A stretch of 20,552 nt of DNA from the IMG/VR virus record IMGVR_UViG_3300049057_000149, positions 1 through 20,552 of that record. One strand, written 5' to 3'. Shown piece by piece: positions 665 through 11,045 of the stretch. The DNA is from a virus. The notes under the pieces were generated by a model. That model worked only from the letters and a program-made list of their open reading frames with translations, had not been told where the DNA came from and did not search any database. The translations under genes were made by a program, and so were the position numbers. Every line of letters starts with the position of its first letter. The first letter of the stretch is position 1.

Positions 665-775
665 ATGGATGGGATTTTAGGGCTTCTGGGATTTCCTGGT
701 GGTGCAGCACTAGACTTGCTGCTAACGCCCAGTGTTAAATTAAGTAAACCACGGGAGGTTTCAACTTGTCAATAA
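665..775 (+). CDS. possible 36-residue hydrophobic leader ORF
   Basis: An ATG at 665 opens 36 codons, with a Gly/Leu-rich N-terminal half (MDGILGLLGFPGGAALDLLL) and a basic, polar C-terminal end. Its stop overlaps the TTG start of the primase-helicase by 10 bases. No Shine-Dalgarno site precedes it. However, a nine-codon frame starting at GTG 634, with GGAGG and a good spacer, stops at 663, one base before this ATG, so reinitiation is conceivable. It may be a coupling peptide or chance. No family is recognised, and only the arrangement supports it. Confidence 0.25.
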   Translation: MDGILGLLGFPGGAALDLLLTPSVKLSKPREVSTCQ

Positions 776-2838
776 CGACACCTCAATTTTCATGCCAATT
801 AAGCTTTTTTAAGCCAGGCGCTACCGCAGCCGAGTCCGCGCAAGTCAGAGAAGTTCAGGAACACCAAGGACTTAGTACCATCGCGCGCGCCATAACTTCT
901 AGCAGTCCTTGGTCTCCAGCGGTGTATCGAGATGGGAAAAGGCGAAACGATCACTTGGAGTCTATCCGTCTACTAGTTTTAGACGTGGACGATGGCTGCA
1001 CTATCGATGAGGCCCGCGCGCAGTTTGCAGACTACGCTCACGTAATCGCGACAACCAGAAGCCACCAGAAAGAAAAGAATGGCGTTGTCTGCGATCGTTT
1101 TCGTGTCGTCCTGTTACTACCGCAAGCTGTAAGTAACGACTCAGACTTTAAACGTTACTGGTTTGCGGCCTACGCTAAGTGGCCCTTCATCGACCCTGCA
1201 TGCAAGGACGCAGCCCGCTTCTTCTTCCCGTGCACTGAAGTTGTCTCGCTAAAGGAGGACGGATTACTGTTCTCGGAAAGCATACAATTGAATGCTAAAG
1301 GCATACAACGGACGCAAGTTAGCAGGCGCCAGGAAACTGGCGAACGCGGTGAACTTAATAAGAAGACTTTAATATTTATTGCTACAGGTAAACTAACACA
1401 CGGCAATTGGCACAATACACGCAATGCCGCGATAAGAGATTGCAAAGACAATCTTTATACAATGGAAGAGGCTATGGACACTCTCCATCCTGCCACAAAA
1501 AAGCATGCAGGTGACTGGGATGAGACTGACATTAAACATTTTGAGGACCTCTATGAGAACCGCCCTAGCCGATATGGACCGCGAGGCTTAGACGACCCGA
1601 ACAACGCTTTACGTGAAATCATCTTACGTTCTAAATATATTGTTAACATGGCTGATCCTGAAGAGACCGTGCTCTTCGACTCAACGACAGGTATCGCGCA
1701 CGCTCTTGCTCCCAGCGTACTTGCTCAGGTTCTAGGTAAGGCAGAAATGGCTCTCTATTCTAGTCAGTCTTTTGTTACCGCAAAATTTGTTTATGACAGG
1801 TTCAAGATGGCGCCCATGTTTAAAGAGGCAAGCACCAATCTAACTTTGTATAACACTTACGTGCCGCCTGAGTGGCAGCGCGCGCACTTTTACTTTGGCG
1901 CTGACTTGCCAGCAGGCAGCGGGCAGCTGCCAGCAGTCTACGACGAATTCCTCACGCATTTAACTGATGGTCATGCTGACTCCAAAGAGTACATCCTTGA
2001 TTGGCTTACGACAGCTCTTAGAGGTCGTAACTATACGATCCTTGCAGCACTCGGAGAGGAAGGCATCGGTAAAGGCATTCTTGGCAGCATCATGTGTGAG
2101 CTTTTTGGGCGCGCAAACTTTGCAAAAGTCCGCGATGAAGTCTTCAAGAACCGCTTCAACGGTCAGCTACGTAATCGCGCACTTGTCTACGTTGACGAAG
2201 TAAAAATTGAGACGAAGGAAGAGCTTAATCGTTTGAAGGATGTCGTTAATGATTCGATCGAGGTTGAGCGTAAAGGTAAGGACGCTGAACAATTAGCAAA
2301 CCAAGCAAGCTTCTATCTTAGTGCAAACGACCTCGATGCGATCCCCTTAAGCTCTGGTGACCGCCGCTTCTCAATCATTCAGCTCACTGAGCAGAAGCTA
2401 GCAGGCACCTCTTTAGTTCATCGGCTTAATCCGCTCACTGAACCTGACAACATCACGCAGCTAGCAGGCTACCTGGCAGCGCGAACGGTAACTCGCAACA
2501 TGTTCTTCCCGTTTGTGTCCGCGCGCACAGAAGAGGTTAAGGAAGCGGGCCTTACTGATTGGGAGTCCCAGGTCCTCTTTGAATGGACGGCCAAGAACGT
2601 GGGTAAGTCGATAAACGTGCGCGAGCTACAATCCTATATTCGGGACGAAGTCTTTAATGGGTATAGGTCGGCGCCCGGTAGACGTCGGATTGAGGGGCTT
2701 TGTAAGAAATATCCTAATTATCTTCGTTTTAAACATAAGACTGGCGAGAGCGAGCGGTTTATTGAGGTGGTAGGCTCACCCAGTAATGTGGGTGCACAGG
2801 ATTCTTCAACTGTTCCAAGAAGTTACAGCGTAAATTAA
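766..2838 (+). CDS. fused primase and SF3 helicase replication protein
   Basis: A 690-residue replication protein expected to unwind phage DNA and prime synthesis. The start is TTG 766, with GGGAGG ending 8 bases upstream. The N-terminal part resembles an archaeo-eukaryotic-type primase: LLVLDVDDG (about 69-77) gives acidic pair Asp73/Asp75, TTRSH (96-100) gives a His motif, and DRFRVVLLL and CKDAARFFFP follow. The C-terminal part is a superfamily 3 (D5/DUF5906-like) ATPase: Walker A GEEGIGKG (430-437), Walker B ALVYVDE (472-478), a sensor SANDLDAIPL around Asn521, and GDRRF (531-535). Walker A ends GKG rather than GKS/T, as seen in some phage members of this group. Residues 381-390 are encoded by a GC-rich repeat (1906-1936). 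A candidate iteron origin begins in its last codons, which fits a self-contained replication module. Domain calls are from motifs; the exact subfamily is uncertain. Confidence 0.88.
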   Translation: MSITTPQFSCQLSFFKPGATAAESAQVREVQEHQGLSTIARAITSSSPWSPAVYRDGKRRNDHLESIRLLVLDVDDGCTIDEARAQFADYAHVIATTRSHQKEKNGVVCDRFRVVLLLPQAVSNDSDFKRYWFAAYAKWPFIDPACKDAARFFFPCTEVVSLKEDGLLFSESIQLNAKGIQRTQVSRRQETGERGELNKKTLIFIATGKLTHGNWHNTRNAAIRDCKDNLYTMEEAMDTLHPATKKHAGDWDETDIKHFEDLYENRPSRYGPRGLDDPNNALREIILRSKYIVNMADPEETVLFDSTTGIAHALAPSVLAQVLGKAEMALYSSQSFVTAKFVYDRFKMAPMFKEASTNLTLYNTYVPPEWQRAHFYFGADLPAGSGQLPAVYDEFLTHLTDGHADSKEYILDWLTTALRGRNYTILAALGEEGIGKGILGSIMCELFGRANFAKVRDEVFKNRFNGQLRNRALVYVDEVKIETKEELNRLKDVVNDSIEVERKGKDAEQLANQASFYLSANDLDAIPLSSGDRRFSIIQLTEQKLAGTSLVHRLNPLTEPDNITQLAGYLAARTVTRNMFFPFVSARTEEVKEAGLTDWESQVLFEWTAKNVGKSINVRELQSYIRDEVFNGYRSAPGRRRIEGLCKKYPNYLRFKHKTGESERFIEVVGSPSNVGAQDSSTVPRSYSVN
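1906..1936. repeat. GC-rich repeat copy inside primase gene
   Basis: The stretch holds CCAGCAGGCAGC, GGGCAGC, the 10-bp palindrome GGCAGCTGCC (1922-1931) and CCAGCAG. It encodes LPAGSGQLPA, at the junction just before the helicase domain. The same palindrome and a similar LPAGS reading occur at 5156-5195, upstream of the small terminase. This suggests one repeat family that can sit in frame within a protein linker. Confidence 0.5.
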
Positions 2839-3014
2839 GCATGCGCACCCAGCACCCAGTCGCCCGACACATCAACCCCAACCACCCATTTATACACACT
2901 CCTATTCTAATTTACTATTTTAGTGGGTGCAGTGGGTGCAGAAGAGTAAGTAGTCGTAACTGTTGAAAAAAAAGCGCACCCACTTGATGGGTGCAGACTG
3001 GGTGCGCACCCAGT
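2790..3014. other. iteron-like GGGTGC cluster, candidate replication origin
   Basis: Nine copies of GGGTGC or its complement start at 2790, 2845, 2852, 2925, 2934, 2976, 2989, 3000 and 3006. They include a tandem pair of AGTGGGTGC (2922-2939) and a perfect 18-bp palindrome ACTGGGTGCGCACCCAGT (2997-3014). An AT-rich stretch free of the motif (about 2888-2922) lies in the middle. Reiterated short motifs flanking an AT-rich segment beside a replication gene are the usual layout of an iteron origin. Origin function is inferred. Autoregulation of the primase operon or transcription termination are alternatives. Confidence 0.5.
2966..2994 (-). terminator. candidate leftward Rho-independent terminator
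   Basis: Read on the reverse strand, a hairpin with 7-bp arms (TGGGTGC/GCACCCA, 2976-2994) and a 5-base loop is followed by GC and eight T residues (2973-2966). That is the standard shape of an intrinsic terminator. It would stop leftward transcripts coming from the 4405-3375 operon before they run antisense through the primase gene. The arms are also two of the iteron-like copies, so the structure may serve both roles. Confidence 0.5.
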
Positions 3015-3033
3015 AGAAAGTTTGAGGTATTAC

Positions 3034-3315
3034 GTGAAGTTAAAGTCTCTGATCGAATTAAGCGTGCCTAAAATAGCCGTCTTTGACGATGGCCACGGCA
3101 CCGTTAACCACAATAAGCTTCAGTTTGCTGGCATCACCTTAGACGGTGAGCCCGTTCTACTAATGCTTGATATTGATGGCAATTTTATTGATCCACGAAC
3201 GCTTAAAGGGTTTAGCGCAATCGTTTCCTTAGAAACGGTGGAAGGCCAGCGAAAGCCTGGCAGGGTGAGCGCTTCTACAGAGGCGTTTGTCGCTGGGGTT
3301 AAAGACAGCCGCTAG
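3034..3315 (+). CDS. hypothetical 93-residue protein
   Basis: The frame is open from 3022, but the start chosen is GTG 3034, which has GAGG (3024-3027) with a 6-base spacer; a TTG at 3022 lacks a comparable site. The product begins MKLKSLIELSVPK and alternates hydrophobic and acidic stretches such as IAVFDDGHGTVNH and PVLLMLDIDGNFIDP. This suggests a small beta-rich fold, ending in a basic polar tail. No signal peptide, membrane segment or known family is recognised. It lies between the candidate origin and the end of the convergent leftward operon. A role linked to replication is only suggested by position. Confidence 0.6.
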   Translation: MKLKSLIELSVPKIAVFDDGHGTVNHNKLQFAGITLDGEPVLLMLDIDGNFIDPRTLKGFSAIVSLETVEGQRKPGRVSASTEAFVAGVKDSR

Positions 3316-3339
3316 CAGGGCAGCAGCCAGCAGGGCAGC
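3314..3339. repeat. AGCAGGGCAGC direct repeat after stop codon
   Basis: Two copies of AGCAGGGCAGC (3314-3324 and 3329-3339) start within the stop codon of the preceding gene. The 16-mer CAGCCAGCAGGGCAGC at 3324-3339 occurs identically at 454-469 inside the holin-like gene. The second copy can also form CAGGG/CCCTG arms (3331-3345). It belongs to the dispersed CTGCTGCC-type repeats in this window. Confidence 0.55.
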
Positions 3340-3374
3340 CCCCTGAACGTTCTAATAGCCCCACCAGCGCGTCG

Positions 3375-3464
3375 TTATGAGACAGCCAGTACCAAGAGAT
3401 AGGCTGTTAAGGCCGCGCCAATAGCGGCGCATACGAGCAAGTCGCAGACTAAGTTGCCAATCAC
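3375..3464 (-). CDS. 29-residue single-pass membrane peptide
   Basis: A reverse-strand GTG at 3464 overlaps the stop of the lipoprotein gene (GTGA), with GGTGG six bases upstream inside that gene. The product, 29 residues, starts MIGNLVCDLLVC and continues as one uninterrupted Ala/Leu/Val helix to its C-terminus (about residues 9-28), ending LLVLAVS. It has two Cys and one Asp and no cytoplasmic tail of note. The four-base overlap argues for coupled, roughly equal synthesis with the lipoprotein. A plausible role is an inner-membrane partner in lysis or an envelope effector. No family is recognised and it is too short for sequence-based certainty. Confidence 0.45.
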   Translation of the reverse strand: MIGNLVCDLLVCAAIGAALTAYLLVLAVS

Positions 3465-3745
3465 TGGGCACCACCGATCTCTTCCAACTCTTCGATCGTA
3501 ATTTCGTAGCCGCCAGTAAGCGTAGTCAGCGCATCTAAGTTGTCTTGAGCTGCGTCTAGTTCTTCTTCGTACTCGAGTAAGGCAGTTCGAGCTTCGTGCA
3601 AATCAGCCCTCGCGCTGTCCAACTCAGCCTGAGCGCGCTCTTGAGCCGCATTCAACTCGTCGCCATAGTCTTGGCGCTCATCTCCGAGCGCGATTGAACA
3701 TGCGGCTATAAACAATAAGAACGTGATTAAAATTAACTTGTTCAT
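3461..3745 (-). CDS. coiled-coil lipoprotein, spanin-like candidate
   Basis: The start is ATG 3745 (MNKLILITFLL), with AAAGGAG upstream at good spacing. A longer in-frame start at 3826 lacks such a site and would spoil the signal peptide. Residues 1-15 form a lipoprotein signal ending in lipobox IAAC with Cys16; Ser17 at position +2 predicts outer-membrane sorting. Residues about 22-75 are Ala/Glu/Asp/Arg-rich heptads (ELNAAQERAQAELDSARADL), a long coiled coil, ending in an acidic tail. The mature chain, about 79 residues, has no second membrane segment, so it is not a one-protein spanin. With its overlapping membrane-peptide neighbour it could be the outer part of a two-component envelope complex. 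A superinfection-exclusion lipoprotein is an alternative. Confidence 0.7.
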   Translation of the reverse strand: MNKLILITFLLFIAACSIALGDERQDYGDELNAAQERAQAELDSARADLHEARTALLEYEEELDAAQDNLDALTTLTGGYEITIEELEEIGGAQ

Positions 3746-4269: not shown

Positions 4270-4270
4270 A

Positions 4271-4405
4271 TTAGGTCCCCTTTGTCACAACGAGACCGCA
4301 TGAAGCGCCTAACGATCGAGCCAATAGCAAGACTAGGGCCAAGTTAGTCCCATGGACTATTCTGGTCCGTCCTGTCTTATTCTCTCGAAACGATACGCGA
4401 TACAT
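4271..4405 (-). CDS. hypothetical 44-residue small protein
   Basis: A reverse-strand ATG at 4405 preceded by GAGAGG with a 5-base spacer opens 44 codons ending one base before the next gene's ATG. The product begins MYRVSFRENKTGRTRIVHGT, continues with a hydrophobic helix (NLALVLLLARSLGASCGLVV) and ends TKGT. The layout suggests a beta-hairpin followed by a helix rather than a true membrane segment. Good start signals and exact packing against the next gene support it. Function is unknown; it is the first gene of the leftward operon, and small early phage proteins of this size often modify the host. Confidence 0.55.
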   Translation of the reverse strand: MYRVSFRENKTGRTRIVHGTNLALVLLLARSLGASCGLVVTKGT

Positions 4406-4423
4406 AGCGACCTCTCAGTTTTA

Positions 4424-4445
4424 GTGCACTGCATCATGAGTGCAC
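4424..4445. promoter_or_regulatory. GTGCACT inverted repeat, candidate operator or leader hairpin
   Basis: Perfect 7-bp arms GTGCACT (4424-4430) and AGTGCAC (4439-4445) flank an 8-base spacer. Each arm contains the palindrome GTGCAC. The repeat ends 18 bases upstream of the 4405 start, just ahead of its Shine-Dalgarno site. It could bind a dimeric regulator or fold in the leader RNA of the leftward operon. Confidence 0.45.
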
Positions 4446-4583
4446 AACTCTAGTTTCGTCGCGTTTTATTGAATCTGAAGAGCCTTAACAGAATCTTGGT
4501 GTCGAATTGGCACATGAATTTTGAATTATTGAGTGTTTTGTATGCATTTACGATAATTGCGAAGATTTAGCTAAAATCTCTAA

Positions 4584-4611
4584 ACAATACGAATTTACCT
4601 GTTTTTCTCAA
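4584..4611 (-). promoter_or_regulatory. candidate leftward sigma70-type promoter
   Basis: Read leftward: TTGAGA (4611-4606, five of six -35 bases), a 16-base spacer, then TATTGT (4589-4584, four of six -10 bases). It would drive the 44-residue gene and the rest of the leftward operon, with a leader of about 170 bases. The match is modest and the region AT-rich, so chance occurrence is possible. Confidence 0.3.
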
Positions 4612-4640
4612 TGTGATTCAACAAATCTTGTTTTATCAAT

Positions 4641-4671
4641 TTGACACGAAATAGAATCTAAATGCTATAAA
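4641..4671 (+). promoter_or_regulatory. candidate rightward sigma70-type promoter
   Basis: TTGACA (4641-4646, perfect -35) is followed after 19 bases by TATAAA (4666-4671, five of six -10 bases). The spacer is slightly long. It points toward the terminase and capsid operon and is back-to-back with the leftward candidate at 4584-4611. Late phage promoters often use other factors, so it may serve early transcription. Confidence 0.35.
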
Positions 4672-5155
4672 ACGTATCGCAAAACCGCAAACAGCATTCC
4701 ACCCCACAAGGTCTCAATATATAAATGCCACCCTCGGCCTGCAATAGTACAATAATACAATAGCATTTGATGTTTACTTAATGATATCAACAACTTAACA
4801 ACTGAGAATCATTGGAACATGGCCTCATGCCACCTGCCCACCCCCAATATTTGCGCCCTGACGCCCCTCTACCGCATCACTCAATCTTATATTAGTTAAT
4901 GATTACAATATGTTATCTCACATTGTCCCACTTCTAGATTGTCTCAGCTTGAGATTGCCAAGTCTTTTCAATAAGTTACGGGGGCGCGTGCCTGCCATCG
5001 ACATACTGTTGATACTCGTAGGGGTCCCTGTTCACAAGTTTTGGCGGAATTTACAGGCAATTCTAATGGGTGGGTTTGGCGATTTTTACGGGTGGGCGTC
5101 GTTCCGTATTTTTGGCCTATGCTAGGGTCGGTTTTAGAGGGCTAGGAAGGCCCGA

Positions 5156-5195
5156 CAGCTGCCTGCTGCCTGCTGGCAGCTGCCTGCTGCCTGCT
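5156..5195. repeat. 21-bp-period tandem repeat before small terminase
   Basis: The 19-mer CAGCTGCCTGCTGCCTGCT occurs at 5156-5174 and again at 5177-5195, with period 21. The palindrome GGCAGCTGCC (5175-5184) spans the junction. In the terminase frame it would read SCLLPAG twice, but the likely start codon lies just downstream. It shares its core octamer CTGCTGCC with copies after stop codons elsewhere in the window. Confidence 0.8.
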
Positions 5196-5615: not shown

Positions 5616-6174
5616 GGGTTCCCGTCGCCGCCGCCGCTCACCAATCAAAGGACCGTGTAAGACTGAGGACTGCAACTATACAGCGGCCAAGGTCGGTCTT
5701 TGCATTAACTGTTACGCCAGATACCGACGAAGTCAGCCCCACGTAAAGCTCCTAGAGAGGGAGAACAAGAAGCGTTATCTAGATCGCCCCGGTAAGCGGC
5801 AGTATTTCGCAGATCGTAAAAGAGAGCGCTGTCGGGAAACCGGCTACTACCAGACACCAGAGTACAAAGCTAAAAAGAAGGCTTACTACACTTCCGAACA
5901 CGGGCGCCGGCTGTACGCTGCCCGGACGGCGAAACGCAGAGCGCAGAAGCTCAAGGCGACGCCAGCTTGGCTCACCTCCCATCAGCACGACCTAATTAAG
6001 ATGTTCTACGAGGCGGCGGGCGCTCTGGCTGCAGAGTTCGGGCGTACAGTGCACGTCGATCACATTATCCCGCTGAAGGGTAAGAATGTGAGCGGCCTCC
6101 ATGTCCCCTGGAATCTCCAAGTCATGTTCGGCGATGAAAACAGTTCGAAGTCCAACAGGGTGGAGGCAGCTTGA
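5578..6174 (+). CDS. HNH endonuclease
   Basis: A 198-residue HNH nuclease set between the two terminase genes and overlapping both (38 and 4 bases). The ATG at 5578 has AAGGA nine bases upstream. It has a highly basic N-terminus (GSRRRRRSPIKG), a four-Cys zinc-binding motif (Cys27, Cys32, Cys42, Cys45), a Lys/Arg-rich helical middle and a C-terminal HNH fold: VHVDHIIPLKGKN with Asp161/His162, then His175, Asn179, and Asn188/Asn193. In cos-type phages such as HK97, an HNH protein next to the terminase assists end cleavage during packaging. Overlapping, in-step gene organisation favours that role here over a free-standing homing endonuclease, though homing remains possible. Confidence 0.85.
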   Translation: METKKTAETARTKGSRRRRRSPIKGPCKTEDCNYTAAKVGLCINCYARYRRSQPHVKLLERENKKRYLDRPGKRQYFADRKRERCRETGYYQTPEYKAKKKAYYTSEHGRRLYAARTAKRRAQKLKATPAWLTSHQHDLIKMFYEAAGALAAEFGRTVHVDHIIPLKGKNVSGLHVPWNLQVMFGDENSSKSNRVEAA

Positions 6175-9938: not shown

Positions 9939-10217
9939 ATGAGTAAACAAATGAAGCTTACACCTGAGGAGCGCGAGCTCCTTGTGGAAGTTCTCTTGAG
10001 TCAAGGTTGGACTTCGCTCTTGCGCGCGATCGACATCGAAGTCGGTCGTTTAGAGCAACTCCTTGTTAAGTATGACCTCTCAGAAGGCGCAGAAAAACTT
10101 GTGCACGCGAAGGCGCGCGTAGAGGGAGCGCATAAACTCCGCTACGCAATAAATCAAATGAAGAGTCGATACCTCAAAGAAGAGGCCGATGATTTGGCGA
10201 ACGGCGACGGCCACTAA
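9939..10217 (+). CDS. hypothetical 92-residue protein of head operon
   Basis: The ATG at 9939 follows the portal stop by six bases, with GAAGG ten bases upstream. The product is helical and charged: MSKQMKLTPEERELLVEVLL, then a segment DIEVGRLEQLLVKYDLSEGA and GAHKLRYAINQMKSRYLKEE. It ends acidic (DDLANGDGH). No membrane part or catalytic motif is seen. Small helical proteins between portal and scaffold occur in many podovirus-like head operons, with unknown function. It may be an assembly accessory protein. Coding status is well supported by spacing and start signals. Confidence 0.75.
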   Translation: MSKQMKLTPEERELLVEVLLSQGWTSLLRAIDIEVGRLEQLLVKYDLSEGAEKLVHAKARVEGAHKLRYAINQMKSRYLKEEADDLANGDGH

Positions 10218-10289
10218 CTGCTGCCACGGGCTCGTAGACCCCGATTGTCTAACGATCGAGTTGTGACGTAATCACCGGAGGAAGTCGTT

Positions 10290-11045
10290 ATGGACGACAA
10301 CAATCAGGCAAATAATGCCCCTGATGACGTACAGGATAATACGCTAGAAACCCCGCAAGAGGACCCGCTAAGAGGAGTTAAGTCAGAGTTTAATCGAAAA
10401 CTTGACGACATTCGCGCTCAGCAGGAAGCCACTATGAGGTCGCTTGAGGCTTCTATTCAGCAGATCGCTTCTAACTTGGTGCCTAGGCAGCCGAGTGCGC
10501 CGACAAAGCCGCTGAAAGAGCTGATTTACGACGATACAGACGCGTTTGCTGAGCAAATCGCAACGATGGCTGCCCAAAAAGCCGAGCAGATCGCTGCCCA
10601 GCGGGCCACTCAAACAGTAAACGAGCATACGACCAAGGCAACAGCCTTCAATCAGGTCGTGAATCGCTTGGCTTCCGAATATCCCGAGCTAAATACGAGC
10701 CGCGAAGCTCTCCAAGTCGTTGAAGAGATGACGAAGTCACTTCCTAAGTCCTTACAAGGAACGCCTGAAGGAGCAGAACTTGCGATTATGCGGGCAGCTG
10801 GCCAGCTTGGGCTTACTCCGGCAAGCAAACGCAAGAGCGTTTCCAAGGAAGACTTCTCCATGCCTGGTAGTTCTAGCGGAAACGGTGCAAGTCAGTCGCG
10901 CGCGCGTAAGCAAGATCCGTCAGAAGGCATCGACCAGAAGACGTTGATGGTCGCTCAGCTCATGGGCCGCGACATTACCGACCCGAAGGTACTCGAAGGC
11001 CTCCGCGAAGCCTCAAAACGTAAAAACTGGAAAGCTCTAAGCTAA
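10290..11045 (+). CDS. capsid scaffolding protein
   Basis: A 251-residue protein likely to guide assembly of the prohead and then be removed. The ATG at 10290 has GGAGG eight bases upstream. The N-terminus is acidic and Asn/Gln-rich (MDDNNQANNAPDDVQDNTLE), followed by a coiled coil (SEFNRKLDDIRAQQEATMRS), an Ala/Gln-rich helix (ATMAAQKAEQIAAQRATQTV), and a flexible Ser/Gly segment (SMPGSSSGNGASQSRARKQD). The basic C-terminal helix (EASKRKNWKAL) is what usually contacts the coat protein. Composition, position between portal and coat genes, and length fit scaffolds. No protease-like motif is evident. Sequence alone does not prove it. Confidence 0.75.
   Translation: MDDNNQANNAPDDVQDNTLETPQEDPLRGVKSEFNRKLDDIRAQQEATMRSLEASIQQIASNLVPRQPSAPTKPLKELIYDDTDAFAEQIATMAAQKAEQIAAQRATQTVNEHTTKATAFNQVVNRLASEYPELNTSREALQVVEEMTKSLPKSLQGTPEGAELAIMRAAGQLGLTPASKRKSVSKEDFSMPGSSSGNGASQSRARKQDPSEGIDQKTLMVAQLMGRDITDPKVLEGLREASKRKNWKALS

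Follow-up and report, generated by a model that had tools for sequence, protein, structure and literature searches.

What is the function of a dense cluster of short repeats at the 3′ end of a viral primase-helicase gene, and does it mark the start of replication, as the initial annotation proposed? The window, defined here as the entire 20,552-base stretch of DNA that was analyzed, contains ten copies of the hexamer GGGTGC, nine of which are located within the 222 bases at 2790–3011. The number expected in a segment of this length is ~0.08, calculated from a shuffle mean of 7.74 per window and in agreement with the ~0.1 estimated originally. An even spread of copies elsewhere would have argued against an origin; the count within the window, which is a linear fragment of a virus record with ORFs cut at both ends, yielded a single hexamer in the other 20.3 kb. 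All nine clustered hexamers extend to the heptamer TGGGTGC and span 2789–3012. When all possible heptamers were compared in the 660 bases around the helicase stop codon, the top heptamer reached 9 copies per 300 bp, whereas the best heptamer in 200 dinucleotide shuffles averaged 2.27 copies and reached at most 3. That the cluster arose by chance or by simple tandem-repeat expansion is hardly credible. Tandem-repeat expansion does account for many of the GGGTGC arrays found in other contigs, several of them inside ORFs, but the window copies occur on both strands with irregular spacing, their number exceeds that of any shuffled heptamer, and the arrangement in the closest relative described below also contradicts this explanation.

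The nine iterons associate into three groups with the order ><<, 65 bp, >>, 36 bp, <>>< (> and < denote the plus and minus strands, respectively). The first group comprises iteron 1 (2789–2795, plus strand), which lies within the helicase gene near its 3′ end, and iterons 2 (2845–2851) and 3 (2852–2858), both on the minus strand and arranged head to tail with a 7-bp period. A degenerate copy with one mismatch, TGGGTGA (2776–2782, minus strand), also lies inside the gene. The second group comprises iterons 4 (2924–2930) and 5 (2933–2939), both on the plus strand, which are the first and second members of a tandem 9-mer pair, two copies of AGTGGGTGC at 2922–2939. The third group begins with iterons 6 (2976–2982, minus strand) and 7 (2988–2994, plus strand) and ends with iterons 8 (2999–3005, plus strand) and 9 (3006–3012, minus strand), which occupy the left and right arms of an 18-bp perfect palindrome, ACTGGGTGCGCACCCAGT, at 2997–3014. 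Both the tandem pair and the palindrome are thus present as first described. The helicase gene stops at 2838, and the proposed placement of the cluster directly after the gene holds for eight of the nine full iterons, the first copy being the exception.

The 65-bp gap between the first two groups has an AT content of 58% compared with 50% for the contig, a modest enrichment, and contains the second one-mismatch iteron, TGGGTGG (2882–2888, minus strand). The least stable 40-mer of the gap by nearest-neighbour energy, 2885–2924, is situated between opposed iteron pairs and falls in the lowest 0.43% of the window 40-mers; it is the proposed unwinding element. A still less stable 40-mer is found at 2700, within the helicase gene, which counts against this proposal. 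The GC skew of the fragment exhibits no clear turning point that would decide the position of an origin.

The adjacent gene (766–2838, plus strand; TTG start assigned by the ORF finder) encodes a 690-residue primase-helicase, the proposed origin-binding initiator. Residues 47–201 match a phage DNA primase family, residues 430–534 correspond to the SF3-type helicase domain DUF5906 (PF19263, E value of 2.6e-19), and both ends of the protein match PHROG DNA primases; the Pfam scan returned no Toprim domain match. The nearest solved relative by sequence is the C-terminal region (CTR) of the NrS-1 primase-polymerase (6k9c/6k9e, E value of 1.2e-12), and the fold matches are to the NrS-1 CTR (E value of 3.4e-20) and to the SaPI5 primase-helicase 7ola (E value of 6.9e-10). 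In the structure model, the N-terminal part is of low confidence and residues 281–670 have values of about 85–98. The last structured part, modeled with pLDDT of about 85–95, consists of a helix (598–610), a short strand (615–617), two helices (618–629 and 639–648) and two strands (653–657 and 664–668), and we read this predicted order as a winged helix. The predicted C-terminal winged helix, residues 597–672 (2554–2781, plus strand), is the likely iteron-binding domain.

A helicase-domain profile identified 80 viral loci, which were clustered at 60% identity. For each locus, the segment that starts 60 bases ahead of the stop codon and ends 400 bases past it was compared with the matching stretch at the gene start and with random stretches elsewhere. 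A heptamer with at least five copies was found downstream in 10 of 35 helicase clusters, the window being one of the 10, compared with 0 of 32 clusters at the upstream stretch and 1.4% of the 2601 random stretches, at the same threshold. The one-sided Fisher probability for 10/35 versus 0/32, calculated by hand, is about 7e-4. About 25 of the 35 clusters have no strong downstream heptamer repeat at the threshold used. The downstream words of the other clusters are GGTTTCC, GTTACAA, AGGTAAC, TAACGCA, ATGGATC, AGTTACC, ATTGTTC, AACTCGA and AAGGTTC, and the sequences read at those loci contain short words on both strands flanking an AT-rich stretch. A recurrent order consists of one group, an AT-rich gap of ~40–65 bp, an oppositely oriented pair, a spacing of about 35–110 bp and a third group, for example, >>>>, 41 bp at 90% AT, <<<, 73 bp, >>> in locus L331 and >>, 39 bp, <<, 82 bp, >> in L344. 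This order is not universal. The closest relative found, L273, whose primase-helicase is 41% identical over 666 aligned positions, deviates from it with 10 GGTTTCC iterons located 33–345 bp past the stop codon in the order <<<<<>>>>>, five in each orientation. Absence of the repeats from relatives that share the primase had been named as an argument against an origin; the word GGGTGC is indeed replaced, by GGTTTCC in L273, and the organization is present. The layout is kept while the word differs because the iteron word is lineage-specific. The recurrence of one plan in different words is the strongest support found for selection acting on the plan rather than on the word.

The same comparison bears on the possibility that the cluster is an operator array, with repressor or activator sites that control the helicase operon or the promoter of the ORF at 3022–3315. 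The 18-bp palindrome ends 8 bp ahead of this TTG-started ORF, and a terminator-like hairpin formed from two iterons, with a T run behind it, occupies 2995–2975 on the minus strand. Nonetheless, an operator function is improbable: a sigma-70-like promoter was not found at 2600–3500, the next feature of the region varies in the relatives (small ORFs, a late activator, a cos end or another gene), and the repeats track the 3′ end of the helicase gene rather than a particular next gene.

A second element occurs at the relatives' loci. The 13-mer AAGYYRTTGWTTT is present in 16 of 90 downstream regions and in none of the remaining 735,792 bases of these loci, a biased count as the 13-mer was derived from these sequences. 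It is located within 500 bp past the helicase stop codon in L273, L292, L293, L331, L340, L341, L345–L348, L350, L352, L354, L357, L359 and L361. Most of its forms fit the IHF consensus WATCAANNNNTTR, with 18 found versus 2.4 expected; one control permutation gave 8 versus 1.15. The element is possibly a host-factor site within the origin. This IHF-like element, common in the relatives, is absent from the window cluster. Elsewhere in the window, an exact match to WATCAANNNNTTR, TATCAACAACTTA at 4785–4797, is found in an 800-bp AT-rich stretch without iterons (4270–5070), and CAGCTGCCTGCTGCCTGCT occurs twice, exactly and with 21-bp spacing, at 5156–5195.

Isolated phages were selected as database matches to the helicases and not for repeats. 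Nine of the 11 carry repeats after the primase gene. These are clear in MA11, the Vibrio phage LP.1, PCA1, the Pseudomonas putida phage Psp6, Vibrio 1.017.O, BcepNazgul and JC01, where the heptamer count was reached by 0 or 1 of 200 shuffles, and weaker in Saba and Donnerlittchen; RDJL3 and KPP25 have no repeats after the primase gene. Several of the repeat sites in the isolates are unannotated gaps of 300–700 bp. A DNA search of the window iteron region against isolated phages gave chance matches only. In Bordetella phage BPP-1 (L363), two opposed TTTGCCTCG tandem pairs surround an AT-rich stretch ~490 bp past the primase gene, beyond bbp28; for phages of this group, the origin had been proposed to be a stem-loop lacking iterons.

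The isolates also inform on whether the cluster is instead a packaging site, pac or cosB-like, bound by the small terminase. BcepNazgul and other cos phages have the region near the genome end, and a small terminase gene adjoins some of the GGGTGC clusters found in unrelated contigs (L036). However, the repeats of PCA1, Psp6 and LP.1 are apart from the terminase genes and adjacent to the primase gene, and in the window the large terminase gene, at 6171, is 3.2 kb from the iterons, which makes a packaging role very unlikely.

Searching sequence collections for the word itself proved misleading, as the matches were mostly tandem-repeat expansions together with dispersed repeats of Catellatospora and of one Prevotellaceae genome. 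In Catellatospora (L233, L236, L240, L241, L243, L245–L248 and others), inverted copies of TGCACCCA with 19-bp spacing occur at many places in the genome and resemble dispersed repeats or sites for a regulator. In the Prevotellaceae genome (L234, L249, L250, L252, L255 and L264), many contigs carry the same inverted TTGCACCC array, in several cases near a contig end. Loci L010, L216, L099 and L269, with L147/L228 and L261, look from their sequences like origins with the same word; they were selected on the word and hence are not counted toward conservation. In L010, L216 and L269 the word lies beside other primase families, and the stretches examined of L147/L228 and L261 showed no primase gene next to it. 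L010 contains twelve TGGGTGC copies around an AT-rich stretch (10155–10474), and these immediately follow a primase gene that belongs to a different family (phrog_1139). GGGTGCA is the word of a second origin-like family, which comprises L216 (1006–1382), L099 (212–510), L261 (4957–5139) and L269 (1914–2179); the arrays of L216, L099 and L269 are near CHC2/Toprim primase-helicase genes, and L261 and L269 are Desulfobulbus-type genomes.

Iteron arrays in plasmids can serve copy control, partition or recombination, and the window cluster could be such a site rather than the replication start itself. Two GGGTGC clusters in other contigs (L086 and L112) adjoin serine recombinase genes. On the other hand, no partition or recombinase gene was recognized next to the window cluster and the comparative association is with the primase-helicase, and we assign this explanation only a slight probability.

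For a replication origin, the question is then which part of the initiator reads the word. The window protein and that of L273 share 60% identity in the helicase core (421–545) and 26% in the winged-helix region (597–672). The proteins of L344 and L345 share 73% in the core and 33% at the C-terminus, and their words differ (GTTAC and GTTCGA), whereas those of L345 and L350, with 98% and 53%, respectively, share the same word. L292 and L293 have a GTTAC-type word in common despite only 30% C-terminal identity. Recognition of the iterons by the C-terminus is only suggested by these pairs because the C-terminus diverges fast in general, as L292 and L293 illustrate. The window (TGGGTGC) and L273 (GGTTTCC), alike in the core and unlike in the winged helix, render initiator–origin specificity directly testable.

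The window also encodes a portal (PF23899) and a capsid protein (PF25209), and the large terminase matches PF03237 just below the cutoff. Because it carries its own large terminase, portal and capsid genes, the contig is assigned to a tailed phage, not to a satellite. No RNA families or tRNA were found in the window. A query with the terminase did not find viral relatives; terminase and portal match phage MW202601 (L271) at 35–37%, the nearest phage by these genes. The replication module has apparently been exchanged, because MW202601 is annotated with DNA polymerases.

Taken together, we conclude from the sequence comparisons that this tailed phage very probably initiates theta-type replication at the cluster, which directly follows the phage's own initiator gene and would be bound by that initiator helicase. 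The initial proposal of an iteron origin beside the primase-helicase is reinforced by homologous helicases elsewhere, at which iterons of matching layout occupy the corresponding position. In the likely mechanism, the C-terminal winged helix of the primase-helicase would bind TGGGTGC, helicase rings would assemble on the opposed iteron groups, and the rings would melt the AT-rich stretch at about 2885–2924 and prime there. The initiator gene and its target could move together as one replicon cassette because they are neighbours, and the iteron word and the winged helix may change together. Further origins may lie outside this genome fragment. The occurrence of this layout 3′ of the primase-helicase in tailed phages of several hosts provides a simple rule for locating origins in metagenomic phages.

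Several known systems share parts of this arrangement. As in lambda-type origins, the iterons are predicted to be bound by a phage initiator; the lambda iterons lie inside a replication gene, whereas eight of the nine window iterons follow the stop codon. The model for the pRN1 plasmid and Bordetella BIP-1 (PMC4234260) likewise places the origin 3′ of a primase-SF3 helicase with a C-terminal winged helix; it features a large stem-loop and a stated absence of iteron structure, in contrast to the nine iterons of the window. The phage P4 alpha protein (cited in PMC4234260) binds repeats via a winged helix, unwinds and primes, activities to which those predicted for the window initiator are likened. 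P4 alpha has a Toprim primase, and the Pfam scan found no such domain in the window protein, which places the latter outside the P4 type. The NrS-1 primase-polymerase (6k9c, 6lrb; PMC7102993) is the nearest solved structure to the helicase half of the window protein by both sequence and fold. For NrS-1, an 8-nt priming signal with two genome copies was suggested as a possible origin, and the parts of that report consulted do not mention an iteron array (PMC7102993).

The closest likeness is to the SaPI/PICI rep-ori (PMC6092414, PMC7581432), which is located directly 3′ of the initiator gene and comprises short iteron sets with element-specific words around an AT-rich stretch, together with an SF3/D5-type primase-helicase with a C-terminal DNA-binding domain. 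In the window, the location immediately 3′ of the initiator gene (stop at 2838, iterons at 2789–3012) and the layout ><<[65 bp]>>[36 bp]<>>< with its modest whole-gap AT content correspond to this type. The initiator of this type is a self-loading helicase that has a dsDNA-binding domain at its C-terminus; for the window protein such a role is only predicted, from the DUF5906 helicase, the modeled winged helix and the fold match to 7ola. The window has three iteron groups versus the two sets described for PICIs. PICIs are satellites without a full virion gene set that depend on a helper phage, whereas the window contig encodes a large terminase, a portal and a major capsid protein of its own. 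By its sequence, the window thus appears to carry the structural features of a PICI/SaPI-type origin and is not itself a PICI. The new aspect is the presence in tailed phages of an origin type known from satellites, with words that change between lineages; a literature search, with subscription journals mostly outside it, found no description of the iteron version in tailed phages. In our judgment, the odds are even that the PICI-type origin is not confined to satellites but serves widely as the replicon of ordinary tailed phages that encode SF3 primase-helicases, with word and winged helix changing together. If so, the origins of many uncultured phages, and an initiator-to-word code, could be read from their sequences, and PICI replicons may have an ancestor in common with those of tailed phages.
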